The notes under the pieces are model-generated. The model saw only the letters and a list, made by a program, of their open reading frames with translations. It did no database searches and had not been told where the DNA came from. From a virus, in the IMG/VR virus record IMGVR_UViG_3300047325_000054, positions 1 through 38,715 of that record: a DNA stretch of 38,715 nt, one strand, 5' to 3'. The translations under genes were made by a program, and so were the position numbers. Every line of letters begins with the position of its first letter. Within the stretch, counting starts at the first letter, position 1. Of this stretch, positions 2,645-18,261 are shown one piece after another.

Positions 2645-5600
2645 TGGCAGACCGCGGCGGCGCTGCGTCGGACGGCAAGGACACGGGTGCAATCCTCCAG
2701 GGCAGTTTTGCGTCTGGTGAGCTCGCGCCGGCACTCTACGCCCGCACGGACCTCGCCAAGTTCCACAGCGGCGCGAAGCTGCTTCGGAACTTCTTCGTGC
2801 AGTCGCAGGGCGGTGTGCTCAACCGCGCCGGCACGCAGTTTTGTGGCTTCGTCCCCGGCGGGGATGTCGCCTCCCGGCTGATCCCGTTCAGTTTCAACCT
2901 CATCCAGACCTACGCGATCTTGCTGGTTCCTGGAGCGATTTATTTCGTTGCCAACGGGCCGAACGGGCCCGGCTTCGTCACCGCGGACGGAACGCCAACC
3001 GGAGCGCTGGTTACGGCCACGACGCCTTATGCCGCTGGCGATCTGTTCGACATCACCTTCACGCAGTCGGCCGATGTGCTGACGCTGTGCCACCCCTCCT
3101 ATCCGCCGGCCCAGGTGACGCGAGAAAGCGCCATTTCCTGGGTCTATGCGCCGATCAAGGCCGGCAGCCAGTTGAAGGCGCCAAACGTTACTCTGCTGCA
3201 CGGGACCAACCAAGGATACCCGGACGGCGACACCAATATTCAGGTGCTGCCGAACGGCTTTGAATACGCCGTCACTGCCTGCAAGATCAATCCGCCGGAC
3301 GAAAGCGCTCTCGGCAACTCTATGTCGTGCGTGAACTACGATCTCGGGTTCAATAACTACGGCGTTTACAACGATCTGTATTGGGTTCCTCCGACGGGAC
3401 AGGCGCAGGATTACTTCAACGTCTATCGCTACTTCTTGGGCGCATGGAGCTTTTGCGCTTCCACGGTCGGGCGGCTGGCGACCGGCGGAAACGGCGAGAC
3501 CGGCGGGCAGCTTGCGCTGAACTGGAAGGACACGGGCGTCACGCCGGACACCAACACCACGCCGCCGCAAAACACCAATCCGTTCTATGAGTCGCAGTTT
3601 ACCGGCAGCATCAGCGGCAGCACTCTCAGCATCTCGTCTTTTGGTGACGGCACCATTGCGCCAGGCGATCTGCTTGCCGGGCAGGGCGTGGCGGCTTCGA
3701 CCAGTGTGCTGAATTGCATTTCCGGTTCCTCGTTCACCGGATCCATCAACGGCACGATCCTAACGGCCACGGCTTTTTCGTCCGGCAACATCAGCGTGGG
3801 CGATGAGATCATTCTGCCGGGCACGTCGAACGGGCCGACCGTGACGGCGATCGGCGCCGGCCAGACGGGCGGCGGCGCGGGCACCTACGGGATGAGTGCG
3901 AACAACGTCACCGGCCAGGAGGGCATGCTCGTGCTGTCCGGCGGCGCGGCGACGTTCGCGGTGAGCAACTCTCAGACCGTGGCGTCCGAAACGATGATGG
4001 GCCCCATGGGCACCTTCACGGCCTCGATCACCGGCACCGTGCTGAGTGCGACAGGGTTGACCGCGGGCACGATCAACCTGGGCGATACCATCACCGGCAC
4101 GAGCGTTTCCTCCGGCACCACGATCGCCTCGAACCTCACCGGTGCGTCCATCATCGGGCAGATGAACGGCAAGACGCTTCAGGTGCTGAACCCGGGCGCG
4201 GGCGAGCCGGAGGTGGGGAACGCCGTCGTCGGCCCAAGCATCAGCTCGTCTACGACGATCACCAGCATTGGGCAGAACGCGGAGGCGGGAGGCGACGGCA
4301 CTTACGTGCTTTCGGCCGGCCTCACCACGCAGAGCCAGGGCATGATGTCGTTCACGGCCGGCGCGGCGACCTTCCAGGTCAGCCAGGCGCAGAACGTGAC
4401 CAGCACGGCCATGACCGGCGGTGTGGCCTATCCCAGCGCCTGCTGCTATTTCCAGCAGCGCGCGGTGTTTGGCGGCCCGAATTCAAACCCGCAGGGCATC
4501 GTTTTCAGCCGTTCGGGCAACTATGCGAACTTCAACGCAAGCCAGCCGATTCGGGACGATGATGCGATCTCGCTGACGATCGCTTCGAGCCAGGTCAATT
4601 CCGTGCGGCATTTGGTGGCGGTGAATGACCTGATCGTCTTCACCAATTCCAGCGCATGGAAGTTGAGCGGGCAAAGCAACTCCGGCGACGTGATCACGCC
4701 AAGCAACGTGGTGTGCGTCCCACAGGCCTATAACGGCTGCTCGAACGTGCCGCCGATCGTGGTGAGCCCCGACATCCTCTACGTGCAGGAGAAGGGGAAT
4801 ACGGTTCGCGACCTGTCCTACAACATCTATGCGAACCTGTATTCCGGCACCGATATCTCGATCCTGTCGAGCCACCTGTTCTTCGGCTACAGCATCGTGG
4901 ATTGGTGCTTTGCTCGTGAGCCGTGGAAGATCGTCTGGGCGACCCGCAATGACGGGACAATGCTCGGCCTGACCTACTCCAAAGATCAAGATGTCTATGC
5001 CTGGCACCACCATGACACGGCGCCGTGCGTGGACGGCTCGGGCAACTCCTACCCTTCGACGTTCGAGAGCGTGTGCAGCATCAGCGAAGGCCAGGAGGAT
5101 GTGGTCTATTGCATCGTGCGGCGGTTCCTGAACGGCGCATGGACGCGGACTGTCGAGCGGATGCAGAGCCGGATCCTGGGCGCCGGGGACAGCGACATCA
5201 CCGCGGCCTGGTTTGTGGATTGCGGGCTGCAATATTCTGGGCCGCCGGTCTCGACGGTGACGGGTCTCACGCATCTTGTCGGGCAAACTGTGTCGATCCT
5301 GGCCGATGGCGCGGTGAAGTCCCAACAGGTGGTTCCGATCAGCGGCGCCATTACGATCAATGCCCCTGCCAGCGTCATCACGGTCGGGCTGCCGATCCAG
5401 GCGCAGATGGAAACGCTACCCCTGGATGCCGGCGAGCCGACCGTGCAGGGCAAATACAAGCGCGTCACGAAGCTGCGGCTCTACGAATACAATACCCGGG
5501 GGCTAAAGGCTGGCGCTGTATCGCAGAGCCAGGGACCGCTTTTGCAGGAAACCGGAGCTCAGTGGGGCAGGGCAGTATGGGGCTCGCCGCCAGCGCTCTA

Positions 5601-5727
5601 TACGGGGCAGACGCTGCTGCACATCCCGGGCGTTTGGGACACCTATGGAACGCTGTTCGTGCAGCAGGATTACCCGCTGCCGGCTTGCTTGCTGGGCATT
5701 GAGCCTTGGGTGAGCGTCGGTGAGTAA
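2644..5727 (+). CDS. Tail nozzle protein (T7 gp12/TTPB-like) with repeat insertion
   Basis: The start at ATG 2644 (TAATG overlap) gives 1027 residues; a longer frame back to 2515 lies inside the glycosyltransferase. Residues 20-65 carry the signature of podovirus nozzle proteins: GSFASGELAPALYARTD, then a LLRNFFV segment and QGGVLNRAGTQF. The core resumes after about residue 590 with YPSACCYFQQR, FSRSGNY and a C-terminal part typical of these beta-rich proteins. Between about 318 and 590 lies a Gly/Ser/Thr-rich region of degenerate repeats, which makes this protein longer than T7 gp12 (about 794 residues). The product should form the distal tail tube through which DNA leaves. The next gene overlaps its end by 8 bases. 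Confidence 0.85.
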   Translation: MADRGGAASDGKDTGAILQGSFASGELAPALYARTDLAKFHSGAKLLRNFFVQSQGGVLNRAGTQFCGFVPGGDVASRLIPFSFNLIQTYAILLVPGAIYFVANGPNGPGFVTADGTPTGALVTATTPYAAGDLFDITFTQSADVLTLCHPSYPPAQVTRESAISWVYAPIKAGSQLKAPNVTLLHGTNQGYPDGDTNIQVLPNGFEYAVTACKINPPDESALGNSMSCVNYDLGFNNYGVYNDLYWVPPTGQAQDYFNVYRYFLGAWSFCASTVGRLATGGNGETGGQLALNWKDTGVTPDTNTTPPQNTNPFYESQFTGSISGSTLSISSFGDGTIAPGDLLAGQGVAASTSVLNCISGSSFTGSINGTILTATAFSSGNISVGDEIILPGTSNGPTVTAIGAGQTGGGAGTYGMSANNVTGQEGMLVLSGGAATFAVSNSQTVASETMMGPMGTFTASITGTVLSATGLTAGTINLGDTITGTSVSSGTTIASNLTGASIIGQMNGKTLQVLNPGAGEPEVGNAVVGPSISSSTTITSIGQNAEAGGDGTYVLSAGLTTQSQGMMSFTAGAATFQVSQAQNVTSTAMTGGVAYPSACCYFQQRAVFGGPNSNPQGIVFSRSGNYANFNASQPIRDDDAISLTIASSQVNSVRHLVAVNDLIVFTNSSAWKLSGQSNSGDVITPSNVVCVPQAYNGCSNVPPIVVSPDILYVQEKGNTVRDLSYNIYANLYSGTDISILSSHLFFGYSIVDWCFAREPWKIVWATRNDGTMLGLTYSKDQDVYAWHHHDTAPCVDGSGNSYPSTFESVCSISEGQEDVVYCIVRRFLNGAWTRTVERMQSRILGAGDSDITAAWFVDCGLQYSGPPVSTVTGLTHLVGQTVSILADGAVKSQQVVPISGAITINAPASVITVGLPIQAQMETLPLDAGEPTVQGKYKRVTKLRLYEYNTRGLKAGAVSQSQGPLLQETGAQWGRAVWGSPPALYTGQTLLHIPGVWDTYGTLFVQQDYPLPACLLGIEPWVSVGE
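3595..4415 (+). repeat. Degenerate repeats inserted in the nozzle gene
   Basis: The nozzle protein here contains at least three, probably four, copies of a beta-rich unit. Each opens FTGSISG/FTGSING/FTASITG/IIGQMNG, continues with T(L/V)xxxxxxxGxIxxGDxI, then a Gly/Thr stretch, and two end in AATFxVSxxQxV. Unit length is roughly 65-80 residues with clear divergence, so these are old protein repeats rather than recent DNA duplications. Similar Gly/Thr-rich modules are common in phage surface proteins. Confidence 0.7.
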
Positions 5728-6184
5728 GCGCATCTCCTATGCCATCGCGACACCGCAAGATGCTGCATGGCTCGGTTCGCGTCTGCGGCCCGCTGATGTG
5801 GCAGAAGTTAAGGCTGCGATTGGGTTGACGCCTGAACGCGCTGTGGAGGTATCGTTTCGGGCATCGACCTGCGCCGTCACGGCGCTGTGGAATGGCGAGC
5901 CTGCCGGAATGTTCGGTATCGTGCCTGTGAGCACCCTGGATGGCGTGGGTGCGCCGTGGATGCTCGGCACGGATCGCGCGGACATGCTGGCGCGGGAATG
6001 GCTCGTTGAAGCGCCGCAGTGGCTGAAGCTTTTAGGTGACGGCTATTTTGTGCTGCGAAATTGGGTTGATGCGCGTAACGTGCGGTCAATCGTGTGGCTG
6101 CGGCGCATGGGGTTCAAAATAGAAAAGGCCGAGCCGTGGGGCACGGCCGGATTGCCATTCCATCGTTTTGAAAGGCGAGTGTGA
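5720..6184 (+). CDS. GNAT-like protein at the T7 gp13 (internal virion protein A) position
   Basis: A 154-residue protein starting with GTG inside the nozzle gene end. The sequence reads as a GNAT-fold acetyltransferase relative: an RISYAIATPQDAAWL N terminus, a central GEPAGMFGIVP strand pair, and a C-terminal NVRSIVWLRRMGF segment that resembles the acetyl-CoA-binding end of such proteins. Podoviruses often place a GNAT-like protein here, equivalent in position to T7 gp13. It is followed by a gp14-like protein through TGATG. Whether it is an enzyme or a structural or assembly factor cannot be told from sequence. Confidence 0.7.
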   Translation: MSKRISYAIATPQDAAWLGSRLRPADVAEVKAAIGLTPERAVEVSFRASTCAVTALWNGEPAGMFGIVPVSTLDGVGAPWMLGTDRADMLAREWLVEAPQWLKLLGDGYFVLRNWVDARNVRSIVWLRRMGFKIEKAEPWGTAGLPFHRFERRV

Positions 6185-6687
6185 TGTGCGTTCCAGCACA
6201 AGCGGCTTCAGCCGGATCGTCGTTGGCCGGACAGTTGGTGTCGAGCGCATTTAGCGCATACGGCCAGATACAGCAGGGTCAAGCGCAGGCCGCAGCGGCA
6301 CGGTTCAACGCGAACCAGGCCGACCAGCAGGCGGCTTCCACCATGACCGCGGCGCGCATTAACGAGCAGCAGACCTACCGCGAGGGAGATCAGCTTGAGG
6401 GGAAAGCCCGGGCTGCCATGGGCGCAAACGGCGTCGAATTGAACAGCGGCAGCGCATTGGCTGTGCAGCAGGGTATCGGTCAGCGCACCGGTCAGAACGT
6501 GGCTGCTCAGGATTACAACGCACGATTGGCGCAGTGGGGAGGCTTGCAGCAGGCGAACATGCTCAACGCCCAGGCTTCGAACGACACGCAGGCGGCTACG
6601 ATTGGTGCAGTCGGCACCATGCTTAGCGGTGCTTCTCAGGTGGCAGGGAAATGGGCCAGCTTCCAGCAGCAAGGTGTATTTAGCTGA
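6184..6687 (+). CDS. Internal virion protein B-like (T7 gp14-type ejection protein)
   Basis: ATG 6184 overlaps the preceding stop (TGATG); a GTG one codon earlier is also in frame. The 167-residue protein is Ala/Gln-rich. It has a hydrophobic N-terminal stretch (about residues 5-30, SSLAGQLVSSAFSAYGQIQQ), then a long helical region with heptad-like Ala/Gln/Asn content and a second weakly hydrophobic segment near residues 135-155. This is typical of gp14-like proteins, which leave the capsid and form part of the ejection channel in the outer membrane. Position between the gp13-like and transglycosylase genes supports this. The stop overlaps the next ATG. Confidence 0.75.
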   Translation: MCVPAQAASAGSSLAGQLVSSAFSAYGQIQQGQAQAAAARFNANQADQQAASTMTAARINEQQTYREGDQLEGKARAAMGANGVELNSGSALAVQQGIGQRTGQNVAAQDYNARLAQWGGLQQANMLNAQASNDTQAATIGAVGTMLSGASQVAGKWASFQQQGVFS

Positions 6688-8984
6688 TGCCGACCGTCCC
6701 TACATCTGATGCCCTCAGCTACAACGGGGTAGGTTCTGCGCCCAGCGTGCAGGCGGCGCCGGCCGACTTTGGCGCGCAGATCGGGCAGGCAGAGCAGGGT
6801 GTAGGGCAGGATCTAAGCCGGGCGTCCGATACGCTTGGCGACGTGGCAATGCAGATGAAGCAGCGCCAACGCCTTATCGCGACGAACAATGCGACGAACG
6901 GTTTTCTCGCGGATACTCACACGATTACCTCGGGCGACCCAAACAATCCCAACGATCCCGGCTACTTTGGAAAGATGGGACAGCAGGCGGTCGATGGCCG
7001 GGCTCAGGCCTTTACCGCGCTCAACAATGCTTACCAGCAGCGCCTAAACAGCCTTCAAGGCGACCCCCTGGCCCAGGCTCAATTTGAGCAGGAAGGCAGG
7101 CGTTATCTGAACATGACGCAGGGCATGCTGGACCAGCACTATGAGCAGCAGAGCAAAGCGGCGTTGATCGGCAGTGCGCAATCCACGCAGCAGATCGCCC
7201 TTCAAGGCTTGGGCATCTATGCGCAAAACGAACCGGGCTGGCAGGCGCATTTCAAGACGCTCACAGAGGCGGCGCAGAACGAGGTGGCGGCCAAGGGCGG
7301 AACGGCCGTCGAGGCGCAGGCCGCGGTGCAGAACGTCACGGAGCTTGCCAAAGCGCAACGCGTGCAGACGCTGATCGGGCTGGGCGACCTGAACGGCGCT
7401 CAATCTTATCTTCAGGCCAATGCCCCTGACTTCAAGCCATCGACGCTGGAGTCGTTGAACAACATGCTCACGCCGAAGCTGCGGGCGCAGCAGGCGTCAA
7501 TGGCGGCCGGCAACGCGGTGTCGATGGCTGATGCCGGGTATAACGCCTATCTAACTGGGCGGCCCCCCGCGCAGCCTGGCGCGCCGTCCGCGGGCACGCC
7601 GGGCGTGAACGATATCAAGAACGCCATCTTCAACCAGGAGAGCGGCAGCAATCCGGCTTCGCCCACCAGCGTCAACGGCGCGGTCGGGCAGGCGCAGATC
7701 ATGCCGGCGACGTTCAAGCAGTTCGCGGCGCCGGGTGAGAGCATCACCAACCCTGCCGACAATGCGGCCGTGGGCCAGCGCATCATCGCGCACTATGCCG
7801 CACAGTATGGAAACGACCCGGCGCGCGTGGCCGTTGCCTACTTCTCGGGCCCTGGCAACGTGGCGCCGCCTGGCAGCCCCACGCCCTATGTGCAGGATGT
7901 GGCTGACGGTAACGGCAAGACCACTTCCTCCTATGTCTCGGACGTGCTCGGCCGCATGGGCGGCGTGAACGGCATCCAGAGCAAGGCGGATTACTACAAG
8001 GCAAATTACGCCGACATCATTGACCAGACCCGCCAGCAGGCGATGAAAGAGAACCCGAGCGACCCGCAGTTTGCGGACCTGGCCGTAGCGCGCACAGAGC
8101 AGCAGATCGGCGCCGTCATCCGGCAGCAGGATCTGTCCTACGCCGCGGATCGAGACACGGTGCTTCGCGCGACGAACGGCGACTTGCAGAAGGGCATCCA
8201 TCCGGCATCCGTGGCTGAGCTGGAGCAGATGGGGCCGACCGTGAGCGCGGCATGGGATCGGTTGCAGCAGAACCAGCCGGAGGTTGCTCACGACATCGCC
8301 ACGCGCCTGATGACCGAGAACGCCAAGGGGCAGGGCGACTCGCGGACCTACGGGCCGGCGTTCTACGACATCTTCAACCGGATCCACGCGCCGGACGGTG
8401 ATCCGAACAAGATCACGGACCCGTCGCAGGTATTTTCGCAAGTGGGCAACGGCCTCACGATGGCCGGTCTATCCAAGGTGCGGGAAGAGATTGCTTCCAA
8501 AGGCACACCGGACGGCGAGGCCGAAAGTGCCATGCGTTCTACATTCTTCAAGAACGCGCACGGGCAGATCAGCGGCACCGATGACGGGATGGGCCTGAAA
8601 GACCCGCAAGGCGAGTCGCAATACCTTCGCTTCATGGCGCAGGCATATCCGCAGATCGCGGCGCTAAAGGCGGAGGGCAAGACGCCGGCTCAGATATACA
8701 GCCCCGATTCACCGGATTACGTGGGCAAGGCCATTCCGGCGTTTAAGCGTTCGCTGGCGCAGCGGACGGCCGACATGATGAGCGCTAATGGGGACGTGAC
8801 GACGCAGCCGCCAGCGCAGCAGCCCGGCATTTTCTCGCGGATGTTCGGGGGCGAGGATGAGCCCGACCTTTCGAACCCTGCGGCTATCAAGGCGGCCTAT
8901 GCGGCTGGCAAGATCGACCGCGGCACCGCGATCAAGAAACTCACTGGCATGGCACCGCAGATGCAGCCTGCGCAGACGGAATAA
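6687..8984 (+). CDS. Ejection protein with lytic transglycosylase (SLT) domain
   Basis: A 765-residue protein with a helical Gln/Ala-rich N-terminal half and an SLT domain at about residues 307-415. E318 in NQESG is the predicted catalytic acid. It is followed by NGAVGQAQIMPAT and NPADNAAVGQRI, then a helix ending in AYFSGPGNV. Such domains cut peptidoglycan glycan strands with anhydro product formation. In podoviruses this activity sits in an ejected internal protein (T7 gp16) and opens a local hole in the wall for the DNA channel. Here the domain is on the shorter of the two large ejection proteins, equivalent by position to gp15. The C terminus (about 700-765) is charged and probably unstructured. 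Confidence 0.88.
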   Translation: MPTVPTSDALSYNGVGSAPSVQAAPADFGAQIGQAEQGVGQDLSRASDTLGDVAMQMKQRQRLIATNNATNGFLADTHTITSGDPNNPNDPGYFGKMGQQAVDGRAQAFTALNNAYQQRLNSLQGDPLAQAQFEQEGRRYLNMTQGMLDQHYEQQSKAALIGSAQSTQQIALQGLGIYAQNEPGWQAHFKTLTEAAQNEVAAKGGTAVEAQAAVQNVTELAKAQRVQTLIGLGDLNGAQSYLQANAPDFKPSTLESLNNMLTPKLRAQQASMAAGNAVSMADAGYNAYLTGRPPAQPGAPSAGTPGVNDIKNAIFNQESGSNPASPTSVNGAVGQAQIMPATFKQFAAPGESITNPADNAAVGQRIIAHYAAQYGNDPARVAVAYFSGPGNVAPPGSPTPYVQDVADGNGKTTSSYVSDVLGRMGGVNGIQSKADYYKANYADIIDQTRQQAMKENPSDPQFADLAVARTEQQIGAVIRQQDLSYAADRDTVLRATNGDLQKGIHPASVAELEQMGPTVSAAWDRLQQNQPEVAHDIATRLMTENAKGQGDSRTYGPAFYDIFNRIHAPDGDPNKITDPSQVFSQVGNGLTMAGLSKVREEIASKGTPDGEAESAMRSTFFKNAHGQISGTDDGMGLKDPQGESQYLRFMAQAYPQIAALKAEGKTPAQIYSPDSPDYVGKAIPAFKRSLAQRTADMMSANGDVTTQPPAQQPGIFSRMFGGEDEPDLSNPAAIKAAYAAGKIDRGTAIKKLTGMAPQMQPAQTE

Positions 8985-8987
8985 ATC

Positions 8988-11900
8988 ATGCCCGATGGAA
9001 TGAACCCGCAGGACGCAGATGCTTTTCTCGGCCCGGCGCCGGCCGCCAAAGGCATGTCGGCAGACGATGCCAACGCCTTCCTGGGGCCTATCTCGATCCC
9101 GGGCATGGGCACGTTTCTGCCGAAAGTGCCGAGCCCTGAACAAGACACCTTCCTCAAAAACACGTCGATCGGCCGTGTCATGTCTGCCTTTGGGCAGGGC
9201 GTCGAGAATGCCTGGGGCACAAGCGATCTCGGTCTGACGCCAGAGGCAGAAGGCGCGCTGAAAAAGGCAGGCGTTCTCCCTGACGTGGCAAAAGGGCAGG
9301 GTGGCATCCTTCGTGCGTTCAATGAGGGACTGATCCGGCCAGCAGCGGCGGCGCTTGATGCGGCGTTTCGTGTGCCTGGCGCGCTGTATTCCGGTGCGCA
9401 GGCGACGGGCATGCAGGTGGGTGCCGAGTTGGGTGCGCCTGAGCTAGCGCGTGACCTGGTGCAGTTTCCGGATGCGTTTGCAGGTTCGCCCAGTGCGCTG
9501 CATGCGCCGCATCCGATCGACCTGCCGGCCGCGCGCGAAATGGGCGCCATCGGTGAGCCAGAGAGCGCCTACATGGGCACCTCGGAGCCCGTAAACCCGG
9601 CGCCCGAAAATGCCGTGAAAGCAAACGTGCAATCCGAGGTGCAGGGTGAGCCTGTGCCGGCGGCGCCCGAACCCGCTGCGGCCGCACCTGAACCAGAGCC
9701 CGCTGCCCCAGCCGCCGAGCCCGCGCCGACCCCGGCGCAGGACGTGCACGGCCTAGCGCGGCAGATCGCGCCGGACACGTTCGACGAATACGATCAGCTT
9801 TCCGCCCATCAGGACAATCTTCGTCAGCAGATCACGGCGGCGCAGGCTGAGCTCCAAAAGAACTTCGAGGCGCAGGCGCCCGGAGCCGCCGAGATTGCCG
9901 ACCTTGAAGCGCGGATGCAGGACACCACGCCGCGCCTGGCCAAGAAGTATCAAGCCCGCCTGGATGAGCTGACGCCGGATCGCGATGCGTTTCTGGCCGA
10001 TGAAGATAAGCAGGCGATGCTGACCCGGGACACGCCCGAGATTGGTGCGCTCCGTCAACAGTTGCTTGAGACGGATTACCGGATGCGCGACTTGGCGCCC
10101 AATGTGACTGAGGCATATCGGCAGGCGGCGGAACAGATGCCGGCTGCGGATGAGCCGGCAATAGCGCCAGAAACAGAAACCGCCGCTCCCGTTGAGTCGG
10201 AAGCGGCGGGGGCTGGTACACCGGAAGCCCAGACGGCACCACAAGCCGCCGCGCCGGCGCAAGGCGAATTGGCACCCGTTGCCAACCCTGGTGAGCCGCC
10301 GCCGGTTGAAAAAGCGCCCGTGCGTCCGGTTGCCGATATCGCCGCGGACGTGTCGAAAAAGCTGCAAGCGGCCGGGCGCCCATTGGAAGAAGCGGACGCC
10401 GCTGGCCAGGTCACGAAGGCGCTGTGGGCAACCCGGGCTGATGCGTTTGGGGGCAAGAAGGGCACCGCGGAAGAAATGTATGCCCGCGAGGCGCCGGATA
10501 TTCGCGCCGGAAAGGAACGCGCACGCTCGCTGGAATTGGCGCAGTCCGATACTGTAAAGAAAGGCGGCGCGCAGGGCAAAATCCGTTTGACCGATGATGG
10601 CCGCAGCGTAATCACGCTGATGAAAACCGCCAACGCATCGACCTATCTGCACGAAATGGGCCACGACTGGCTTGAGCGCATGACGCGCGATGCCGCCGAT
10701 CCTGACGCGCCGCAGTCGATGCGCACGGATGCCAAGACGGTGCGGGGCTATCTCGGGCTGAATGATGGCGATGCGATCACGACGAAGGCCCATGAAAAGT
10801 TTGCCCGGTCATTCGAGCGGTATTTCATGGAGGGGCGCGCGCCATCCAAGGCACTGGCCGGCGTGTTTGCCAAGTTTAAGGACTGGCTCACGACGATCTA
10901 TCAGACCGTTGCCAAATTGAAGGCGCCGATTACGCCAGATATTCGGGACGTGTTTGACCGGATGCTGACCAATGAGCCGGATCGTCAGCCGTCGATCGTG
11001 CCGGAAACAGCCGCCGAGAGCGCGCAGGGTGAGTTGCCGGTCGAGCCGCCGGCCGCAAAGCCCACACCGCTCTATCCGAAGCTGCCCAAGCCGCCGATCA
11101 GCATAACGGGCTGGATCAGGAAGCTGGGCGGCGTGCGCGATGAAGGCGGCGAAATCGCGCAGATGCTGGACAAGCGGAAATTGCCCGGTTTGCTCAACAA
11201 GTCGGGCCTGAGCCTCGATGAAATGACCGAACGGCTTTGGAACGATGGGTATTTGCCCGAATTCCACACACGTCCGACAATTCAGGAAATGCTAGCGGTG
11301 CTTGAGGATGACATGAAAGGTCATTCGCCGCGGTTCTCCGAGTTCGACCATGAACAGGTCCAGGCGTATCAGGATGCGGTTGCGCATAACGAGGAAATTG
11401 AACGCCTCTCGCATAACCATGACATCGACACGACCGGCATGACGCGCGAACAATTCTTTGAGGAATTGTCCAAGAAGCTATCCGAGGAAAAGCAGGCCGA
11501 GGAAATCCGTTCCCAGGAAGAAGCGCACGAGGCTGCGTTTGGTGAGTTCGCATCCGAGTTGCGCGAGCATGAGGAAGCGCAGCACGGTTCTTGGGATAGC
11601 GACACGTTTTATGGTATCGACGGGCCGCGCACAGAGGCGGAGTTGGAGGCATCCTATGGACAGGAGAACGCTGCTCGATCAGCGGGACAAGGCGATGCGG
11701 GCGGTAGCGATGCCGGATCTTCCGCAGGATCTGCGGACGATGGCCAAGAAGGCAGCGGACCACGCGGACGTGGCGCTGGGGATGCAGGACGCCCAAGCGA
11801 AGCAGTCGAGCAATCCGCAGCAGGTGGTAAGCAGCCCGGGGATGGTGGTCCCGCAGGCGCCAATCGGCCTTACGGACGATCCGACACAACCCTGATGGAC

Positions 11901-14198
11901 AAGGCGGGCAATATCCGCCTGGACAACCTCAACCAGCCCGAGGACGTGAACGCGGTCATCCGCGAGGCTGCCGCAGCATCTGACGATCATTTGGCGGCGC
12001 GGCGCGGCGTAATCTCCGATCAGCAGGTGCTTGACCTGGCCGACGCGCTGGGCATGCAGGCGTCCGATTTGAATGCCCGTAAGATCGGCCAAGCCTTCAA
12101 CGCCGAGCAGGTGGTGGCGGCGCGCAAACTGCTGATCCAGTCCGCGCAAGCCGTGCGGGACGCCATGGCAAAGGCTGCCACGGGCTCGGATGCCGACGTG
12201 ATGGCCTATGCCGAGGCGGCCGACCGGCACCGCATGATCCAGGAGCAGGTTTCCGGCATCACGGCCGAGGCAGGGCGGGCGCTGCGAGCGTTCCGCGCCA
12301 TCGGGGAGGAGGGGCAGCAGACGAAGGCGCTGGGCGACTTCCTGCAAGCCTCTACCGGCAAGACGCTGTTCCAGATGCGCCGGGAAGCGCAGGCTGGCAT
12401 GCTCCTGGATACGCCAGAGCAGGTGTCCAAATTCATGCAGGACACGGCCAAGCCCACCTTTGGCGATATGGCGTTGGAATATTGGATCAATGGCCTGATT
12501 TCGGGGCCGGCCACCCATACGACCTACGCCATCGGTAACGCGCTGCTGGCTCTGTGGAAGGCGGTGCCCGAGACGGCGGTTGCGGCCGCAATCGGTAAGC
12601 TGCGCGGCGGCGCGGAGCGGGTCTATGCCGGCGAAGTGAATGCGCAGCTATATGGGCTGGTGAAGGGCCAGCGCGACGGTGTGAGAGCGGCGTGGAAAGC
12701 GGCCAAAAGCGGCCTGACATCGGAACTGCCCGGCGAAGGCGAGGCGGAGGCGCAGACCTCAATGCTGGCCGCTCAGCCGCGGCCTGGCGGCGCAATACCC
12801 GGCAAGCTGGGTGAGGTGATCCGGCTGCCGTCCCGCGGCGTGGCGACCATCCACAGCTACTTTCGCGCCATCGGCTACGAGCAGAGCATTGCGCAGCAGG
12901 CTTACCGCCAAGCGGCGGCGGAAGGGCTGGACGGCGACGCCTTTGCCGCCCGGGTGCAGCAACTCACCACCAACCCGCCTCCCGAGATGATGGAGGCAGC
13001 GCGGCAGGGTGCCACAGACCAAACCCTGATGAACCAGGGCGGTGAACTGACCCAGAAGGTGGGCGACCTGTTCGACCATCGGTTTGCAAGCCTGGGCGGC
13101 TTCCCAGCGCTGAAACTGATCGATCCGTTCGTCAAGATCGGCGCGAACGTCATGAGCCAAGCGCTCATGGAGCGGTCGCCGCTTGGTGTGCTGAACGCCG
13201 ATATCCGCGCAAACCTGATGGGCCGTAATGGGCCGATCGCACGCGACACGCAGATTGCCCGGATTGCGGTCGGCTCGGCATTGGGCGCGACCGCCATCGG
13301 GCTTGCTATGCAGGGCCTGATCACCGGCGCCGGGCCGTCTGACCCCAAAGAGGCCGCTGTATGGCGCTTGGCCGGCAACCAGCCTTACAGCGTGAAGATC
13401 GGCAGCACCTGGTATGCCTATCATCGCCTGGGGCCGCTCGCGATGATCGTGGGCGTTGCGGCCGACATGCACGACGTGGGCGCTGCCATGACCACGCACG
13501 AGGCCGGCCAGGTGGCGAACCTCGTTGTGAGCTCGCTTGCAAAGAGCCTGCTGGACGAGTCCTTCATGCGCGGGCCGTCCGAGTTGATCCAAGCCGTCGA
13601 GGATCCGGACCGCTACGGTGCGCGGTATGTGCGCAGCCAGTTGGCGACCCTGATCCCGTTCTCGACAGGCATGGCGCAGGTGGCGCGCGCCGCGGATCCT
13701 TACGCCCGCGAGGCGCGCACGACTTTGGACACGATCAGGGCCCGCCTACCCTTTGTCTCGCAGGGGTTGCTGCCGCGCCGCGATTTGTTCGGCAACGCGA
13801 TCCCGAACGCTGACGATCTGGGCGCCGCGGGGCTTACGTCCATCCAGGAGACGCGCGCTAAAAACGATCCTGTGAGCGCAGCCATGTTGCGGCTTGGGTA
13901 TTATCCCGCGCAGCCGGAGCGCAAGCTTGTCGGCGTGACGCTGAACGATCAGCAATACGACGACTATAGCCGCACGGCCGGCCGCATGGCGAAAATGCGT
14001 CTCGATGCGCTCGTGAACACGCCAGGCTTTTCAGCTTTGCCGGATGGCGTGCAAACGAAGACCGTGCAGGACATCTTCGCCAGTTCGCGGCGTGCGGCCG
14101 GTGAACTGATCAAGATGCAAAATCCGGCTATTATCCAGCAGGCCGTGGACAACAAGCGTGCGTTCATCACCCAGGGGCGGGCTGCCCTGACGCATTGA
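8988..14198 (+). CDS. Giant ejection/internal virion protein with zincin-like domain (polyvalent type)
   Basis: The 1736-residue frame occupies the T7 gp16 position. Residues 1-200 hold short repeats (DADAFLGP, DANAFLGP). Residues 215-470 are Ala/Pro/Glu-rich linkers around a coiled coil (about 260-390). H555-E-M-G-H559 is a zincin-type metal motif, with a following helix containing KFARSFERYF. After about 970 the C-terminal half has features of large polyvalent-protein domains: GNIRLDNLNQPEDV, LISGPATHTTYAIGNAL and a hydrophobic segment near residue 1430. Residues 890-970 are Gly/Ala/Asp-rich with poor third-position GC, exactly where a second gene lies in another frame; M970 (11895) follows that gene's stop as TGATG. 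So the C-terminal 767 residues could also be made separately. The product should be packaged and ejected with DNA. Confidence 0.82.
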   Translation: MPDGMNPQDADAFLGPAPAAKGMSADDANAFLGPISIPGMGTFLPKVPSPEQDTFLKNTSIGRVMSAFGQGVENAWGTSDLGLTPEAEGALKKAGVLPDVAKGQGGILRAFNEGLIRPAAAALDAAFRVPGALYSGAQATGMQVGAELGAPELARDLVQFPDAFAGSPSALHAPHPIDLPAAREMGAIGEPESAYMGTSEPVNPAPENAVKANVQSEVQGEPVPAAPEPAAAAPEPEPAAPAAEPAPTPAQDVHGLARQIAPDTFDEYDQLSAHQDNLRQQITAAQAELQKNFEAQAPGAAEIADLEARMQDTTPRLAKKYQARLDELTPDRDAFLADEDKQAMLTRDTPEIGALRQQLLETDYRMRDLAPNVTEAYRQAAEQMPAADEPAIAPETETAAPVESEAAGAGTPEAQTAPQAAAPAQGELAPVANPGEPPPVEKAPVRPVADIAADVSKKLQAAGRPLEEADAAGQVTKALWATRADAFGGKKGTAEEMYAREAPDIRAGKERARSLELAQSDTVKKGGAQGKIRLTDDGRSVITLMKTANASTYLHEMGHDWLERMTRDAADPDAPQSMRTDAKTVRGYLGLNDGDAITTKAHEKFARSFERYFMEGRAPSKALAGVFAKFKDWLTTIYQTVAKLKAPITPDIRDVFDRMLTNEPDRQPSIVPETAAESAQGELPVEPPAAKPTPLYPKLPKPPISITGWIRKLGGVRDEGGEIAQMLDKRKLPGLLNKSGLSLDEMTERLWNDGYLPEFHTRPTIQEMLAVLEDDMKGHSPRFSEFDHEQVQAYQDAVAHNEEIERLSHNHDIDTTGMTREQFFEELSKKLSEEKQAEEIRSQEEAHEAAFGEFASELREHEEAQHGSWDSDTFYGIDGPRTEAELEASYGQENAARSAGQGDAGGSDAGSSAGSADDGQEGSGPRGRGAGDAGRPSEAVEQSAAGGKQPGDGGPAGANRPYGRSDTTLMDKAGNIRLDNLNQPEDVNAVIREAAAASDDHLAARRGVISDQQVLDLADALGMQASDLNARKIGQAFNAEQVVAARKLLIQSAQAVRDAMAKAATGSDADVMAYAEAADRHRMIQEQVSGITAEAGRALRAFRAIGEEGQQTKALGDFLQASTGKTLFQMRREAQAGMLLDTPEQVSKFMQDTAKPTFGDMALEYWINGLISGPATHTTYAIGNALLALWKAVPETAVAAAIGKLRGGAERVYAGEVNAQLYGLVKGQRDGVRAAWKAAKSGLTSELPGEGEAEAQTSMLAAQPRPGGAIPGKLGEVIRLPSRGVATIHSYFRAIGYEQSIAQQAYRQAAAEGLDGDAFAARVQQLTTNPPPEMMEAARQGATDQTLMNQGGELTQKVGDLFDHRFASLGGFPALKLIDPFVKIGANVMSQALMERSPLGVLNADIRANLMGRNGPIARDTQIARIAVGSALGATAIGLAMQGLITGAGPSDPKEAAVWRLAGNQPYSVKIGSTWYAYHRLGPLAMIVGVAADMHDVGAAMTTHEAGQVANLVVSSLAKSLLDESFMRGPSELIQAVEDPDRYGARYVRSQLATLIPFSTGMAQVARAADPYAREARTTLDTIRARLPFVSQGLLPRRDLFGNAIPNADDLGAAGLTSIQETRAKNDPVSAAMLRLGYYPAQPERKLVGVTLNDQQYDDYSRTAGRMAKMRLDALVNTPGFSALPDGVQTKTVQDIFASSRRAAGELIKMQNPAIIQQAVDNKRAFITQGRAALTH
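11656..11895 (+). CDS. Nested 79-codon gene in another frame of the giant ejection gene
   Basis: ATG 11656 has an excellent Shine-Dalgarno (GGAGG at 11645-11649, 6-base spacing) and runs in the +1 frame to TGA 11893-11895, which overlaps ATG 11895 of the main frame. The protein begins MDRRTLLDQRDKAMRAVAMP and has a normal mixed composition with a helical, Asp/Ala/Lys-rich middle. Third codon positions here are mostly G or C, as in other genes of the window. The main frame over the same bases is a Gly/Ser/Ala/Asp string with many A/T third positions. This suggests that selection acts mainly on the nested frame. I do not recognise a family; a virion assembly or chaperone role is a guess from context. 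Confidence 0.65.
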   Translation: MDRRTLLDQRDKAMRAVAMPDLPQDLRTMAKKAADHADVALGMQDAQAKQSSNPQQVVSSPGMVVPQAPIGLTDDPTQP

Positions 14199-14214
14199 AT
14201 TCCTCATAATTTTT

Positions 14215-14244
14215 GGTCCCCTCTGCCGCGACAGGCAAGGGGCC
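14215..14244 (+). promoter_or_regulatory. Hairpin covering the tail-fibre ribosome binding site
   Basis: An inverted repeat pairs GG, CCCC-T and TGCC on the left with GGCA, A-GGGG and CC on the right. This makes about 11 base pairs with two single-base bulges and a 6-base loop (14228-14233). The right arm contains AAGGGG (14237-14242), the likely Shine-Dalgarno of the fibre ATG at 14249. No T-run follows, so it is not a standard terminator. It could reduce fibre translation or mark an RNA-processing point between the ejection and fibre genes. Confidence 0.5.
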
Positions 14245-14248
14245 GGAA

Positions 14249-16534
14249 ATGGCTGTCGAGACGCTGAACATTTACGCCACGTTCAGCGGGGACGGCGTAA
14301 CCACCGTTTTCCCGTTCAGTTTTCCTGTGCAGCAGCCCACGGATTTGGCGGTATTCTACACCGATCCGACCGGTGTTGTTTATGCCATCCCGCAGACCGG
14401 TTTTTCCGTCACGATCAACGGCGGTGATCCATCCATTGGCGGCGCGGTGGCCTTCTATTTTCAGGGCAGCCCGTGCCCGGTCGGCTCGGTCATTGCCGTC
14501 ATGCGGTATGTTCAGCCGCTACAATCGGTCGAAATCAACAATCAAGACGGTTTTGAGCCTGTCATCGTCACCGATGAGTTTGACAAACTCACCATGGTCG
14601 ATCAGCAGCTCACGGACGGCGTAGCGCGCGCCTTGACGCTGCCGCCCGGTGATCCGGCGACGGGAACGATGGTGCTGCCGGGGCCGACCGGGCGCGCTGG
14701 GAACACACCGGCTTTCGACGGCAACGGCAACCTCATCCTCGTGCCTACGAGCGCAGGTGGTGGGGGAGGCGGGCCCACCGTTCCCAGCAGCGCGCCTTTG
14801 CTGGGGTCATCCTCGGCTGGCTCGCTCGTCTCGGTCGGCATTGGCGCCGGGCTTTCGATCACTGGCGGCGATCTGGTCGCTACCGAGCAGAGCCTTCCGG
14901 TTAACGCCTCGCTGCTGGCAACGGATAGCCTTGGTGATCCGCAGCCTGTCGCGCTTGGAACCGGTGTTTCGATCAGCGCAGGCACGCTTTCGGCCACGGC
15001 CGCGGCGTTGCCGGATAACGCTTCCCTTTTGGCGACGAATTCGGGCGGCACCGCAACCGCCGTTGCCCTTGGTTCCGGTGTGGCGATCACTTCGGGAACG
15101 CTGAGCGCGACCGCGGCGAGCGTTCCGGCAAATGCCTTCCTGCTGGGCTCGAACAGCAGTGGCACGCTGCAAGGCGTTGCTATCGGTCAGGGCATCGGGA
15201 TCACCGGCTCCGGCGGCACTGGCTCGGGCGGCACGCTCTATTGCGCCACGCCGCTCAATGCGTCGCTGCTTTCGACCGGCGCAGTGCATGGGCAGTTTCA
15301 GCCGGTCAACCTTGGCGCCGGCTTAAGCCTCACGACGGTCAGCGGCACGAAGACGCTTCAGGTGGCGGCCAATGCGCCGCCTGCCAGCGCGCCGCTGGTG
15401 GGCACGAATGGATCCGGCGTGTTTACGCCCGTGGTCGCCGGGCCGGGCATCGTCATCAGCTCGGGGACGCTTTCGGCTGCATCCGCTTCGCTGCCGGTCA
15501 ACGCGCCGATCCTGGCGACGAACAGCGGCGGCACGGCGACCGCGCTTGCGATCGGCGCCAATCTCTCGATTTCGGCCGGAACGCTGAGCGCCACGGGTGG
15601 CGGTTCCAGCTTGCCGGCCAGCGCTCAACTGCTGGCCTCGAATTCGGGTGGGACAGCGACGGCAGTCGTGGTGGGCGCCGGCCTGTCTGAAAACTCCGGC
15701 ACGCTCTCCGTCACCGCGGCCTCTTTGCCGGCCAACGCGCCTATTCTTGCGACCAATTCAGGCGGCACCGCTACGGCGCTCGCCATCGGCGCCGGCCTGG
15801 CGTCTTCCGGTGGCACGCTGAGTGCCACGGCGCTGTCTGTGCCGGCCAGCGCTCCGCTCTTGGCGTCTAACTCCGGTGGAACGCTCACTTCCGTTGTGCT
15901 CGGCACGGGGCTTTCGGAATCGGCCGGCACGCTGACGGCAACGGCGGCGGCTTTGCCGACATCCGCCTCGCTTTTGGCTACAAATAGCGGTGGGACCGCG
16001 ACGGCAATAACGCTGGGCACAGGCCTCTCCGAGAGCGCCGGCACCCTCACACTTTCTGGCGGAGCCGGAAGCCTTGCCGTTACTGACGGTTCTCATACGG
16101 TAACTGCGGTTAGTGAGTTTATCCTTTCCAATGGGATCACCTTGGGCGCCTCTGGGACTGGCACGGCGACGCTCGGTGTGAACTCTGGCCCTGGGGACGG
16201 TTTTCCCGTCATCCTTCATGGCTATTCCGGCGATGGCACTCTTTCTGCCAATGGCACTTGCCTTGTCGCAGACCCACCGCCTGGCTATACATATACCTTT
16301 GCCACTTCCTGTTTGAATGTTAAAGTCGGCGTTGCTCCGACCAACAATGCAACTCTTACTTTACGTAATGGCGGAACATCTGTTGGCACCGTCGTCATTC
16401 CAGCAACATCTACAACTCCAACAATCACCATCGCATCCGGTTTTGCGGTCACAACCGAGCTTCTTTTGGCTGGTCCGGCAACCCCTGATGCGACGTTGGC
16501 TCAAGTCCGCTCGACTGTTTTGGGCACACGATAA
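14249..16534 (+). CDS. Tail fibre protein with T7 gp17-like N terminus and eleven repeats
   Basis: The start at ATG 14249 (AAGGGG 6 bases upstream) gives 761 residues. Residues 1-140 match the particle-attachment domain of T7-type fibres: FSGDGVTTVFPFSF, then an IAVMRYVQPLQ segment and DEFDKLTMVDQQL followed by ARALTLP. From about 178 to 605 come eleven repeats of 37-40 residues opening (L/V)PxxAxLLATNS and closing SxGTLSATA. The last 150 residues, from about 16,080, differ in style and base composition, with lower GC and a short beta-rich tip. The stop overlaps the SPRY-like gene (TAATG), which probably encodes the distal receptor-binding part. The frame could start at 14213, but that region forms the hairpin. 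Confidence 0.88.
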   Translation: MAVETLNIYATFSGDGVTTVFPFSFPVQQPTDLAVFYTDPTGVVYAIPQTGFSVTINGGDPSIGGAVAFYFQGSPCPVGSVIAVMRYVQPLQSVEINNQDGFEPVIVTDEFDKLTMVDQQLTDGVARALTLPPGDPATGTMVLPGPTGRAGNTPAFDGNGNLILVPTSAGGGGGGPTVPSSAPLLGSSSAGSLVSVGIGAGLSITGGDLVATEQSLPVNASLLATDSLGDPQPVALGTGVSISAGTLSATAAALPDNASLLATNSGGTATAVALGSGVAITSGTLSATAASVPANAFLLGSNSSGTLQGVAIGQGIGITGSGGTGSGGTLYCATPLNASLLSTGAVHGQFQPVNLGAGLSLTTVSGTKTLQVAANAPPASAPLVGTNGSGVFTPVVAGPGIVISSGTLSAASASLPVNAPILATNSGGTATALAIGANLSISAGTLSATGGGSSLPASAQLLASNSGGTATAVVVGAGLSENSGTLSVTAASLPANAPILATNSGGTATALAIGAGLASSGGTLSATALSVPASAPLLASNSGGTLTSVVLGTGLSESAGTLTATAAALPTSASLLATNSGGTATAITLGTGLSESAGTLTLSGGAGSLAVTDGSHTVTAVSEFILSNGITLGASGTGTATLGVNSGPGDGFPVILHGYSGDGTLSANGTCLVADPPPGYTYTFATSCLNVKVGVAPTNNATLTLRNGGTSVGTVVIPATSTTPTITIASGFAVTTELLLAGPATPDATLAQVRSTVLGTR
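14781..16059 (+). repeat. Eleven tandem repeats in the tail fibre gene
   Basis: Successive units of about 111-120 bases encode proteins starting LPVNASLLATDS, LPDNASLLATNS, VPANAFLLGSNS, TPLNASLLSTGA, PPASAPLVGTNG, LPVNAPILATNS, LPASAQLLASNS, LPANAPILATNS, VPASAPLLASNS and LPTSASLLATNS, plus a first unit VPSSAPLLGSSS. Each continues with a Gly-rich turn, a VxxGxGL(S) strand and SxGTLSAT. The later units are closest to one another, which suggests growth by unequal recombination. They probably form the fibre shaft, whose length would follow the copy number. Confidence 0.85.
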
Positions 16535-17703
16535 TGGCAACAGCTTTTAGCCCTACTCTTACCGCGCTCACTTCAATCGCTAATATAAGCGTCAGTGGCA
16601 CAGATGATTTAACCGTCACAGCCATTGCATCAAACTACGCTCTTGCCCGAGCCGCGCCGCCAGCATTCAAGACCGGACTAAAATATTTTGAGATCTCTAT
16701 CGTTGCTGCTAGTACGACGCCAGGACAAGATGCTCTCGGTTTGCAGTTTTCCCCTGACATTGCGGGGATATATTTTGATTTTAGTGCCGGTTTGATGTGG
16801 GTTACAAAAGATGGAGTAAACTTTAACAATACAGTCGGATCGTCTCCCAGCACTGGTTTGCTTGGAAATGCCTTTAGTGTTACAGGGCCTTTCTTTTTTG
16901 CGGTTAGTTTGTATACTAATCAAAATTTTGTAACTGCAAACTTTGGGCAAGGTCCTTTTTCGTTGCCTGTTGCAAGTGGATTTTCTGCTTGGGGGGCAGC
17001 AGAACAGTTTAATCCAGCAGATGCTAACAGCAACTTGGTGGTTGGCGCAGACGGTGTTTCTATTTATGCTACTCAGACGAGTAGTGGCTGGGCTATGGTG
17101 CGCTCGATTGGAAGCAAATCTTCAGGAAAGGTCTATCTCGAAATTCCATTGGCATGTGGCGCGAGCAATGGCATTATCGTAGGACTAGCCAATTCCAGTG
17201 CCAGCTTAGGCAGCCAGGTAGGGAGTAGTGGTGACAGTGCGGGTTGGCAATGTCAGGCCAGTTTATATGGCTTTTCCGGTCCTGTCGGAGCTTATGGCTA
17301 TGCTGACCTAAACCCAGTTGATAGCACTTCGCTTTCCCCGAATGAGTTTTATTACGCTAGCAATGGATATGGGGAAGGGAACTTTGGGCTTGAAGCATGG
17401 GGTAGCGGCGATGTTATTTCATACGCTGTTGATGAGGTGCACAACAAGTTATGGAGACGGCGAAACGGTAATCTATGGGAGAATATATCTGGAAGTGATC
17501 CTGCAACAAATACTGGTGGTGTAAGTGTTCCTGCGGGAATTGCGCAGATATTTAGTAATTTATCTGTTATTGGAAGTAAACAGGTTCTAAACACTCTCGG
17601 TCCGTTCATTAATTCTTTGCCTGCGGGAGCAGTTGGTTGGGACGCTTCCGGTCCTCCGCCCACAGCAGCGCAAAATCAAGTTACTATCATGTGTGTCACA
17701 TAG
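16534..17703 (+). CDS. Receptor-binding tail protein with two SPRY-like (lectin-fold) domains
   Basis: A 389-residue protein coupled to the fibre gene by TAATG. Two related domains are visible: residues about 45-160 (GLKYFEISIVA, then AGIYFDFSAG) and about 170-375 (GWAMVRSIGSKSSGKVYLEI, IIVGLANSS, GDVISYAVD, LWRRRNGNLWENISG). The second has the SPRY/concanavalin-like pattern in which a GDVIGVAVD-type strand precedes a W-containing turn and an asparagine-glycine-rich loop. Such modules in phage tails bind surface carbohydrate or protein. The gene is clearly AT-richer than its neighbours (for example 25 G/C of 60 bases at 16801-16860), which points to recent acquisition. The receptor is unknown. 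Confidence 0.72.
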   Translation: MATAFSPTLTALTSIANISVSGTDDLTVTAIASNYALARAAPPAFKTGLKYFEISIVAASTTPGQDALGLQFSPDIAGIYFDFSAGLMWVTKDGVNFNNTVGSSPSTGLLGNAFSVTGPFFFAVSLYTNQNFVTANFGQGPFSLPVASGFSAWGAAEQFNPADANSNLVVGADGVSIYATQTSSGWAMVRSIGSKSSGKVYLEIPLACGASNGIIVGLANSSASLGSQVGSSGDSAGWQCQASLYGFSGPVGAYGYADLNPVDSTSLSPNEFYYASNGYGEGNFGLEAWGSGDVISYAVDEVHNKLWRRRNGNLWENISGSDPATNTGGVSVPAGIAQIFSNLSVIGSKQVLNTLGPFINSLPAGAVGWDASGPPPTAAQNQVTIMCVT

Positions 17704-17710
17704 GTGAAAG

Positions 17711-17770
17711 ATGAGAAACTTTCTTAAAATCGGCAGCGTGCAGGTAGGCGGGATACAGCAAGTGCTGTGA
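17711..17770 (+). pseudogene. 19-codon ORF, possibly a truncated gene start
   Basis: ATG 17711 follows the receptor-binding gene by 7 bases with GGTGAAAG upstream, and encodes MRNFLKIGSVQVGGIQQVL before TGA. The opening M(R/K)NFLKI resembles the start of phage 2OG-Fe(II) oxygenase-like proteins found beside tail genes, as far as I recall that family. If so, this is a stump left by a deletion. It could equally be a chance ORF. Confidence 0.25.
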
Positions 17771-17844
17771 TGATCCATTAGTGCGTATCTACGGGAGACA
17801 CACGGTGCTTGAACTGCCGACTCGAAAAAAGACGGGTTACTGAT

Positions 17845-18261
17845 ATGCGTTATTTGGTTCATCTCTGGCAGACTATCGTTGAGCTAACCCATCGTGACTT
17901 CTGGTGGGCAGAGTTCTTCAGCGCACTCGCCCTTATGATCTGGGCGCTTGTCAACATTGAGAACCCCGAAGCGCTTTCATCGCATAACTTCTGGCCGCTG
18001 CTTCAAGTGGCGCCTGAAAGCTTCTGGGAGCGTGCATCCTTGTGTGTTGGCACCATGCAGCTCATAGCGCTTGCCGCGGATAACCGATGGGCGCGGGCAT
18101 TTGGTGCCTTTCTGGCGACGTGGCTTGTTGGTTGCATCTTTGGAAATCTGATGCACCTGGGTCATTGGCCGACCGGCGCTGTCGGTTACTATTTCGCCGC
18201 CCTTTGCACAAGCATAATGGCGCTGTGGAAGAACATCATCCGTCACGGGAGTCCTACGTGA
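17845..18261 (+). CDS. Multi-pass membrane protein, lysis-region (unassigned)
   Basis: ATG 17845 gives 138 residues; an in-frame start at 17809 would add 12 unconvincing residues. Four hydrophobic segments are visible: about 18-38 (EFFSALALMIWALVNI), 65-80 (LCVGTMQLIALAA), 86-108 (FGAFLATWLVGCIFGNLM) and 114-133. A 12-codon reading frame with its own GGGAG (17805-17843) ends just before this start and might couple translation. It is the first gene of the lysis region and could be a holin, antiholin or superinfection membrane protein. I recognise no family. Confidence 0.7.
   Translation: MRYLVHLWQTIVELTHRDFWWAEFFSALALMIWALVNIENPEALSSHNFWPLLQVAPESFWERASLCVGTMQLIALAADNRWARAFGAFLATWLVGCIFGNLMHLGHWPTGAVGYYFAALCTSIMALWKNIIRHGSPT

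Follow-up and report, generated by a model that had tools for sequence, protein, structure and literature searches.

Layout of the locus

The window, by which we mean the whole stretch of 38,715 nucleotides that was analysed (IMG/VR record IMGVR_UViG_3300047325_000054), carries a giant gene of the ejection type. Tail tubular genes, two internal virion protein genes and a transglycosylase (SLT) gene lie upstream of it, and a tail spike or fibre gene lies downstream. The features of the giant gene are as follows.

8988 to 14198, plus strand: giant ejection (internal virion or polyvalent-type) gene, 1736 codons; open reading frame with tblastn and PHROG matches to internal virion protein D
10575 to 11006, plus strand: HExxH zincin-like peptidase domain of the giant protein, with HEMGH at residues 555-559; HMM map
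11064 to 11537, plus strand: module X, encoded after the peptidase and ahead of the nested gene; HMM map
11645 to 11649, plus strand: Shine-Dalgarno sequence GGAGG of the nested gene, 6-base spacing; from the sequence
11655 to 11894, plus strand: main-frame linker, Gly/Ala/Pro-rich, open and not conserved in sequence; same DNA as the nested gene
11656 to 11895, plus strand: nested gene in the +1 frame of the giant gene, 79 codons, type A; open reading frame, homologues and codon usage
11895 to 11897, plus strand: ATG (M970, codon 970) overlapping the nested stop; not conserved and probably not a start
11898 to 14156, plus strand: gp16-like (internal virion protein D) C-terminal part of the giant protein; tblastn, PHROG and HMM map

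In the protein, the peptidase corresponds to residues ~530-673, module X to ~693-850 and the linker with the nested gene to 890-969. The C-terminal part resembled internal virion protein D in sequence and lay in synteny behind other internal virion genes, and the HExxH motif was kept in 52 of 53 peptidase domains among the relatives. A search of the giant protein of the window against Pfam gave no match. Pfam LPD3 is present in a relative (L048), and this, together with the zincin-like HExxH motif, would place the giant gene among the phage polyvalent proteins (PMC5512222).

Two other genes of the window are recorded here for their composition or position. A glycosyltransferase-like gene (1820-2644, PHROG 13126) lies among the tail tubular genes. 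The open reading frame at 16534-17703 adjoins the tail spike or fibre gene, and its sole PHROG match is a PHROG of unknown function. GC content falls to ~0.49-0.51 in this region (16001-18000), and GC2 exceeds GC3 over most of the length of the frame, unlike the rest of the contig; this is perhaps a recently acquired gene.

A second reading frame within the giant gene

The nested gene starts with the ATG at 11656-11658 and stops with the TGA at 11893-11895. A first-pass annotation had drawn attention to this 79-codon frame, to the GGAGG at 6-base spacing and to a TGATG shared with codon 970 of the giant gene, and all of these coordinates were confirmed. Its remark that the third positions are GC-rich was likewise borne out: GC content at the three codon positions was 0.71/0.45/0.80 when the DNA was read in the nested frame and 0.80/0.71/0.45 when it was read in the main frame, i.e. 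a third-position value of 0.80 versus 0.45. The rest of the main gene gave 0.69/0.48/0.75, and the bias flips precisely at the nested gene. Among the large genes of the window, the nested start is the sole internal ATG that combines a strong Shine-Dalgarno sequence, at least 50 codons and a reversed codon-position GC pattern. The whole frame lies inside another one and has its own initiation signals, as is characteristic of overprinting. The openness of the +1 frame was dropped as evidence for a gene, since this frame stays open in 93.5% of synonymous recodings of the Gly/Ala/Ser-rich main frame (P = 0.935). The case therefore rests on the codon-position bias, the Shine-Dalgarno sequence and the homologues.

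Occurrence at the joint between peptidase and gp16-like part

A search with the full protein returned six relatives, all with a +1 nested open reading frame at the same place. The nested frame was recovered in homologues through its own similarity, with identities to the nested protein of the window of 57% in L006, 70% over 50 residues in L002 and 36% in L003, an AT-richer relative in which the nested gene is also present. The seventh match of this search, L008, shares the peptidase alone; its giant open reading frame (3924-14849, 3600 codons) contains a tandem pair of peptidases, of which the second lacks HExxH, and is free of nested genes. Querying with the C-terminal part added 46 loci, some of them repeats. 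A genome search contributed seven, mostly in Alphaproteobacteria MAGs and in the cultured Paramagnetospirillum kuznetsovii LBB-42, whose prophage (L070) has a nested gene, and six came from type B nested sequences used as queries. Removal of duplicates left 50 giant genes with both a peptidase and a gp16-like part, which form 44 clusters when the C-terminal part is grouped at 70% identity; for 44 of these genes the nested sequence played no part in the discovery.

At least one nested +1 gene was present in every nonredundant giant gene that has both a peptidase and a gp16-like part (50/50), compared with none of the eight that have a gp16-like part and no peptidase (Fisher p = 5e-10, uncorrected for ancestry). 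It was also absent from all 11 giant genes with a peptidase and no gp16-like part, which include those of Bordetella phage BPP-1, Xanthomonas phage CP2 and Pseudomonas phage AF; the idea that the nested gene simply accompanies the peptidase was rejected on this ground.

The nested small proteins are of types A and B/C, both predicted helical hairpins, and the profile link between them is weak (hhalign probability 7%, score 19.9 versus at most 14.5 for shuffled sequences). Type B/C genes mostly start 45-47 codons past the peptidase, and the type A gene sits after module X. Two nested genes within one giant gene were found in L020, L032, L042 and L085 (type A plus B/C) and in L028 (A-type plus C-type). 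In the main open reading frame of L028 (1595-9517) the A-type nested gene lies far upstream of the peptidase and inserted modules separate it from the C-type copy, a layout suggesting that modules travel together with their nested gene. An exception to the pairing of X and type A is L081, where the peptidase, a type B nested gene and an X-like module precede the C-terminal part, with no type A gene after X.

Start signals, selection and codon usage

The start codon was ATG in 47 of 52 nested genes. A Shine-Dalgarno match of at least four bases was found at 43 of the 52 nested starts, some of which were picked partly with this signal in view, versus 7.2% of 2429 control ATGs in other frames. 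Instead of a preserved linker over an interrupted nested frame or a lost Shine-Dalgarno sequence, we observed the opposite: the nested frame was open in all 50 giant genes and its ribosome-binding signal was mostly kept. For seven close pairs, simple counts that do not fully model overlapping frames gave a dN/dS in the overlap of ~0.49 for the nested frame (p = 6e-9) and of ~1.34 for the main frame; selection on the amino-acid sequence was thus detected in the internal frame, where it is purifying, and not in the main frame. The nested protein showed 92% identity where the main protein downstream was 70% identical. Codon usage fitted the nested frame better in 36/38 loci and in 0/38 control spans. 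The main frame was always open, even though the median chance of this, given the nested protein, was 0.045; the loci share ancestry, and summed log-probabilities overstate their independence. From the constrained nested residues and the unlikely openness of the main frame it follows that what is preserved in the nested frame is the amino-acid sequence, and in the main frame the ability to be read through.

On these sequence data, 11656-11895 is very probably a genuine, conserved overprinted gene and the main-frame linker its by-product (probability about 0.85). That the linker could be the by-product of a gene in another frame had been proposed in the first-pass annotation, and the constraint on the nested frame, set against its lack in the main frame, supports this proposal.

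Proposed translation of the nested frame

The nested protein would be made by internal initiation on the mRNA of the giant gene, from its own Shine-Dalgarno sequence and ATG in the +1 frame, which appears to be the simplest route to this frame. The main frame would be open solely to keep the peptidase and X modules joined to the gp16-like part, its residues acting as a free-form Gly/Ala/Pro linker. An account without any gene, in which the openness and coding appearance of the +1 frame are side effects of a Gly/Ala/Ser-rich linker in a GC-rich genome, agrees with the outcome of the synonymous recodings; it is nonetheless highly improbable, as the nested amino-acid sequence, the Shine-Dalgarno sequence and the start are conserved, purifying selection is seen in the nested and not in the main frame, and one family occupies one joint in 50 diverse genes, that of the AT-richer L003 included. 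Programmed frameshifting from the main frame has in its favour that frameshift products are common among phage structural genes. Here we consider it scarcely credible: in 21 of the 52 nested genes the frame is closed by a stop no more than five codons before the start, so that a frameshift would have almost no space in which to occur, and the Shine-Dalgarno sequence and ATG are conserved. A further proposal of the earlier annotation concerned the TGATG, which would couple the nested stop to a restart at M970, such that the C-terminal 767 residues are also made alone and the 5.2-kb frame yields three products. The TGATG is present in the window and, among the relatives examined, peculiar to it. 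At 2 of 52 joints the main frame has a start codon in the interval from -30 to +18 nt around the nested stop, against a background rate of 69%. These two joints are those of the window (ATG) and of L024 (GTG), neither has a Shine-Dalgarno sequence, and M970 is replaced by Ile (ATC) in the closest relatives, L006 and L002. A conserved in-frame restart was consequently discarded, coupling to M970 is very unlikely even in the window, and the sequence evidence favours two products instead of three.

Predicted properties of the nested product

The type A protein of the window was predicted as a helical hairpin with a disordered tail, and the confidence of the predictions was high (pLDDT 94 for the type B hairpin; residues 1-50 for type A). 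Cysteine accounts for 0.1% of the residues of the nested proteins, and no hydrophobic signal segment was seen on reading the sequences. The putative product would be small and soluble. An embedded o-spanin (Rz1) was rejected, as the nested proteins are almost free of cysteine and do not provide the lipobox Cys.

Comparison of the nested family with Pfam, PHROGs, PDB sequences and isolate phages gave no match that we accepted; a hit to PHROG 5120 (E = 0.076) and other weak PHROG, Pfam and PDB matches were scattered over single members and were taken as chance. A search of 384 other alphaproteobacterial genomes and of isolate phages gave no standalone copy. Foldseek searches with the type A and type B hairpins returned no significant match. 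Matches obtained with VIA-align, with Z up to 9.4, were within the common range of this tool for helical bundles, and no function was drawn from them.

Discussion

It is moderately likely that the nested gene predates the linker and was caught in a fusion of its neighbours. Codon usage favours the nested frame, which under the genealogy criterion given in the review PMC8227390 makes this frame look the older one, and an older nested frame suggests a small gene that would have been trapped when the two genes flanking it fused. With close to an even chance, a podovirus ejection-protein lineage was built by fusion through such small genes, the linkers being small genes read out of frame, the joint cassette having been duplicated and its product serving the protein in which it lies; the duplication is proposed on the basis of the giant genes with two nested genes each. 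Classical overprinting, in which the small gene originated de novo within a linker that was already present at domain fusion, appears less probable, though far from negligible. The nested family is without relatives outside these joints, and genome-like codon usage can, according to the same review, be attained by older de novo genes. On the other hand, in 36 of 38 loci codon usage points to the nested frame as the more ancient, and the fast-evolving frame is the main-frame linker. As to function, the nested product may act as a chaperone, an adaptor or an internal core component in the assembly of the ejection protein, whose mRNA it shares; the odds of such a partnership are somewhat below even, and the fixed position in the ejection protein and the hairpin fold are consistent with it. 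A role as specific inhibitor or pro-segment, which would keep the HExxH peptidase inactive until ejection, has in its favour that most type B/C genes start 45-47 codons past the peptidase and that the peptidase retains HExxH. We consider this role unlikely because the family also has members in BPP-1-like and other giant genes that lack a gp16-like part, and no nested gene accompanies them there; moreover, module X and not the peptidase precedes the nested gene in the window and in six relatives.

The nested gene, if correctly identified, represents a conserved and apparently unannotated phage gene family that extends over ~44 diverse lineages, prophages of Alphaproteobacteria included, and that a one-frame gene finder is expected to miss. 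The joints form a large natural sample indicating that an existing gene, read in a second frame, can supply the linker between two domains. This route has been proposed for hepatitis B virus; for phages we found no description in the literature searched, nor any report of the present overlap. Low-complexity linkers of giant phage proteins should be treated with caution, since they may conceal real genes, which codon-position GC can expose.

Several known systems resemble parts of this arrangement. The polyvalent proteins of Iyer et al. 2017 (PMC5512222) are likewise giant multidomain proteins with a zincin-like peptidase encoded in a virion-protein operon; the word 'overlapping' is absent from the text of that article. 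T7 gp16, or internal virion protein D, belongs to the same family as the C-terminal part of the giant protein, which differs in being fused to a peptidase via an overprinted linker. In the Rz/Rz1 spanins (PMC6139136) a phage gene also lies wholly within another in the +1 frame and has its own start. Rz1 is a lipoprotein encoded in a lysis gene, whereas the nested product here is a predicted soluble hairpin, almost free of cysteine, encoded in a structural gene. Counterparts in layout come from eukaryotic viruses, with unrelated proteins, and are described here after PMC8227390. In apple stem grooving virus, an RNA virus of plants, the movement protein overlaps the linker between RdRp and coat protein, and this linker diverges ~10 times faster; a conserved small protein over the linker of a large one is what we find too, and the duplicated arrangement seen here is not reported in the passage on that virus. 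For the polymerase spacer/preS region of hepatitis B virus a trapped-gene origin has been proposed (Pavesi model, reviewed in PMC8227390): as in the giant phage genes, a small gene lies between two protein parts, the frame across it is a linker, and both are kept. In that virus both frames vary similarly in spacer/preS1, whereas in the phage genes the nested frame is the constrained one.
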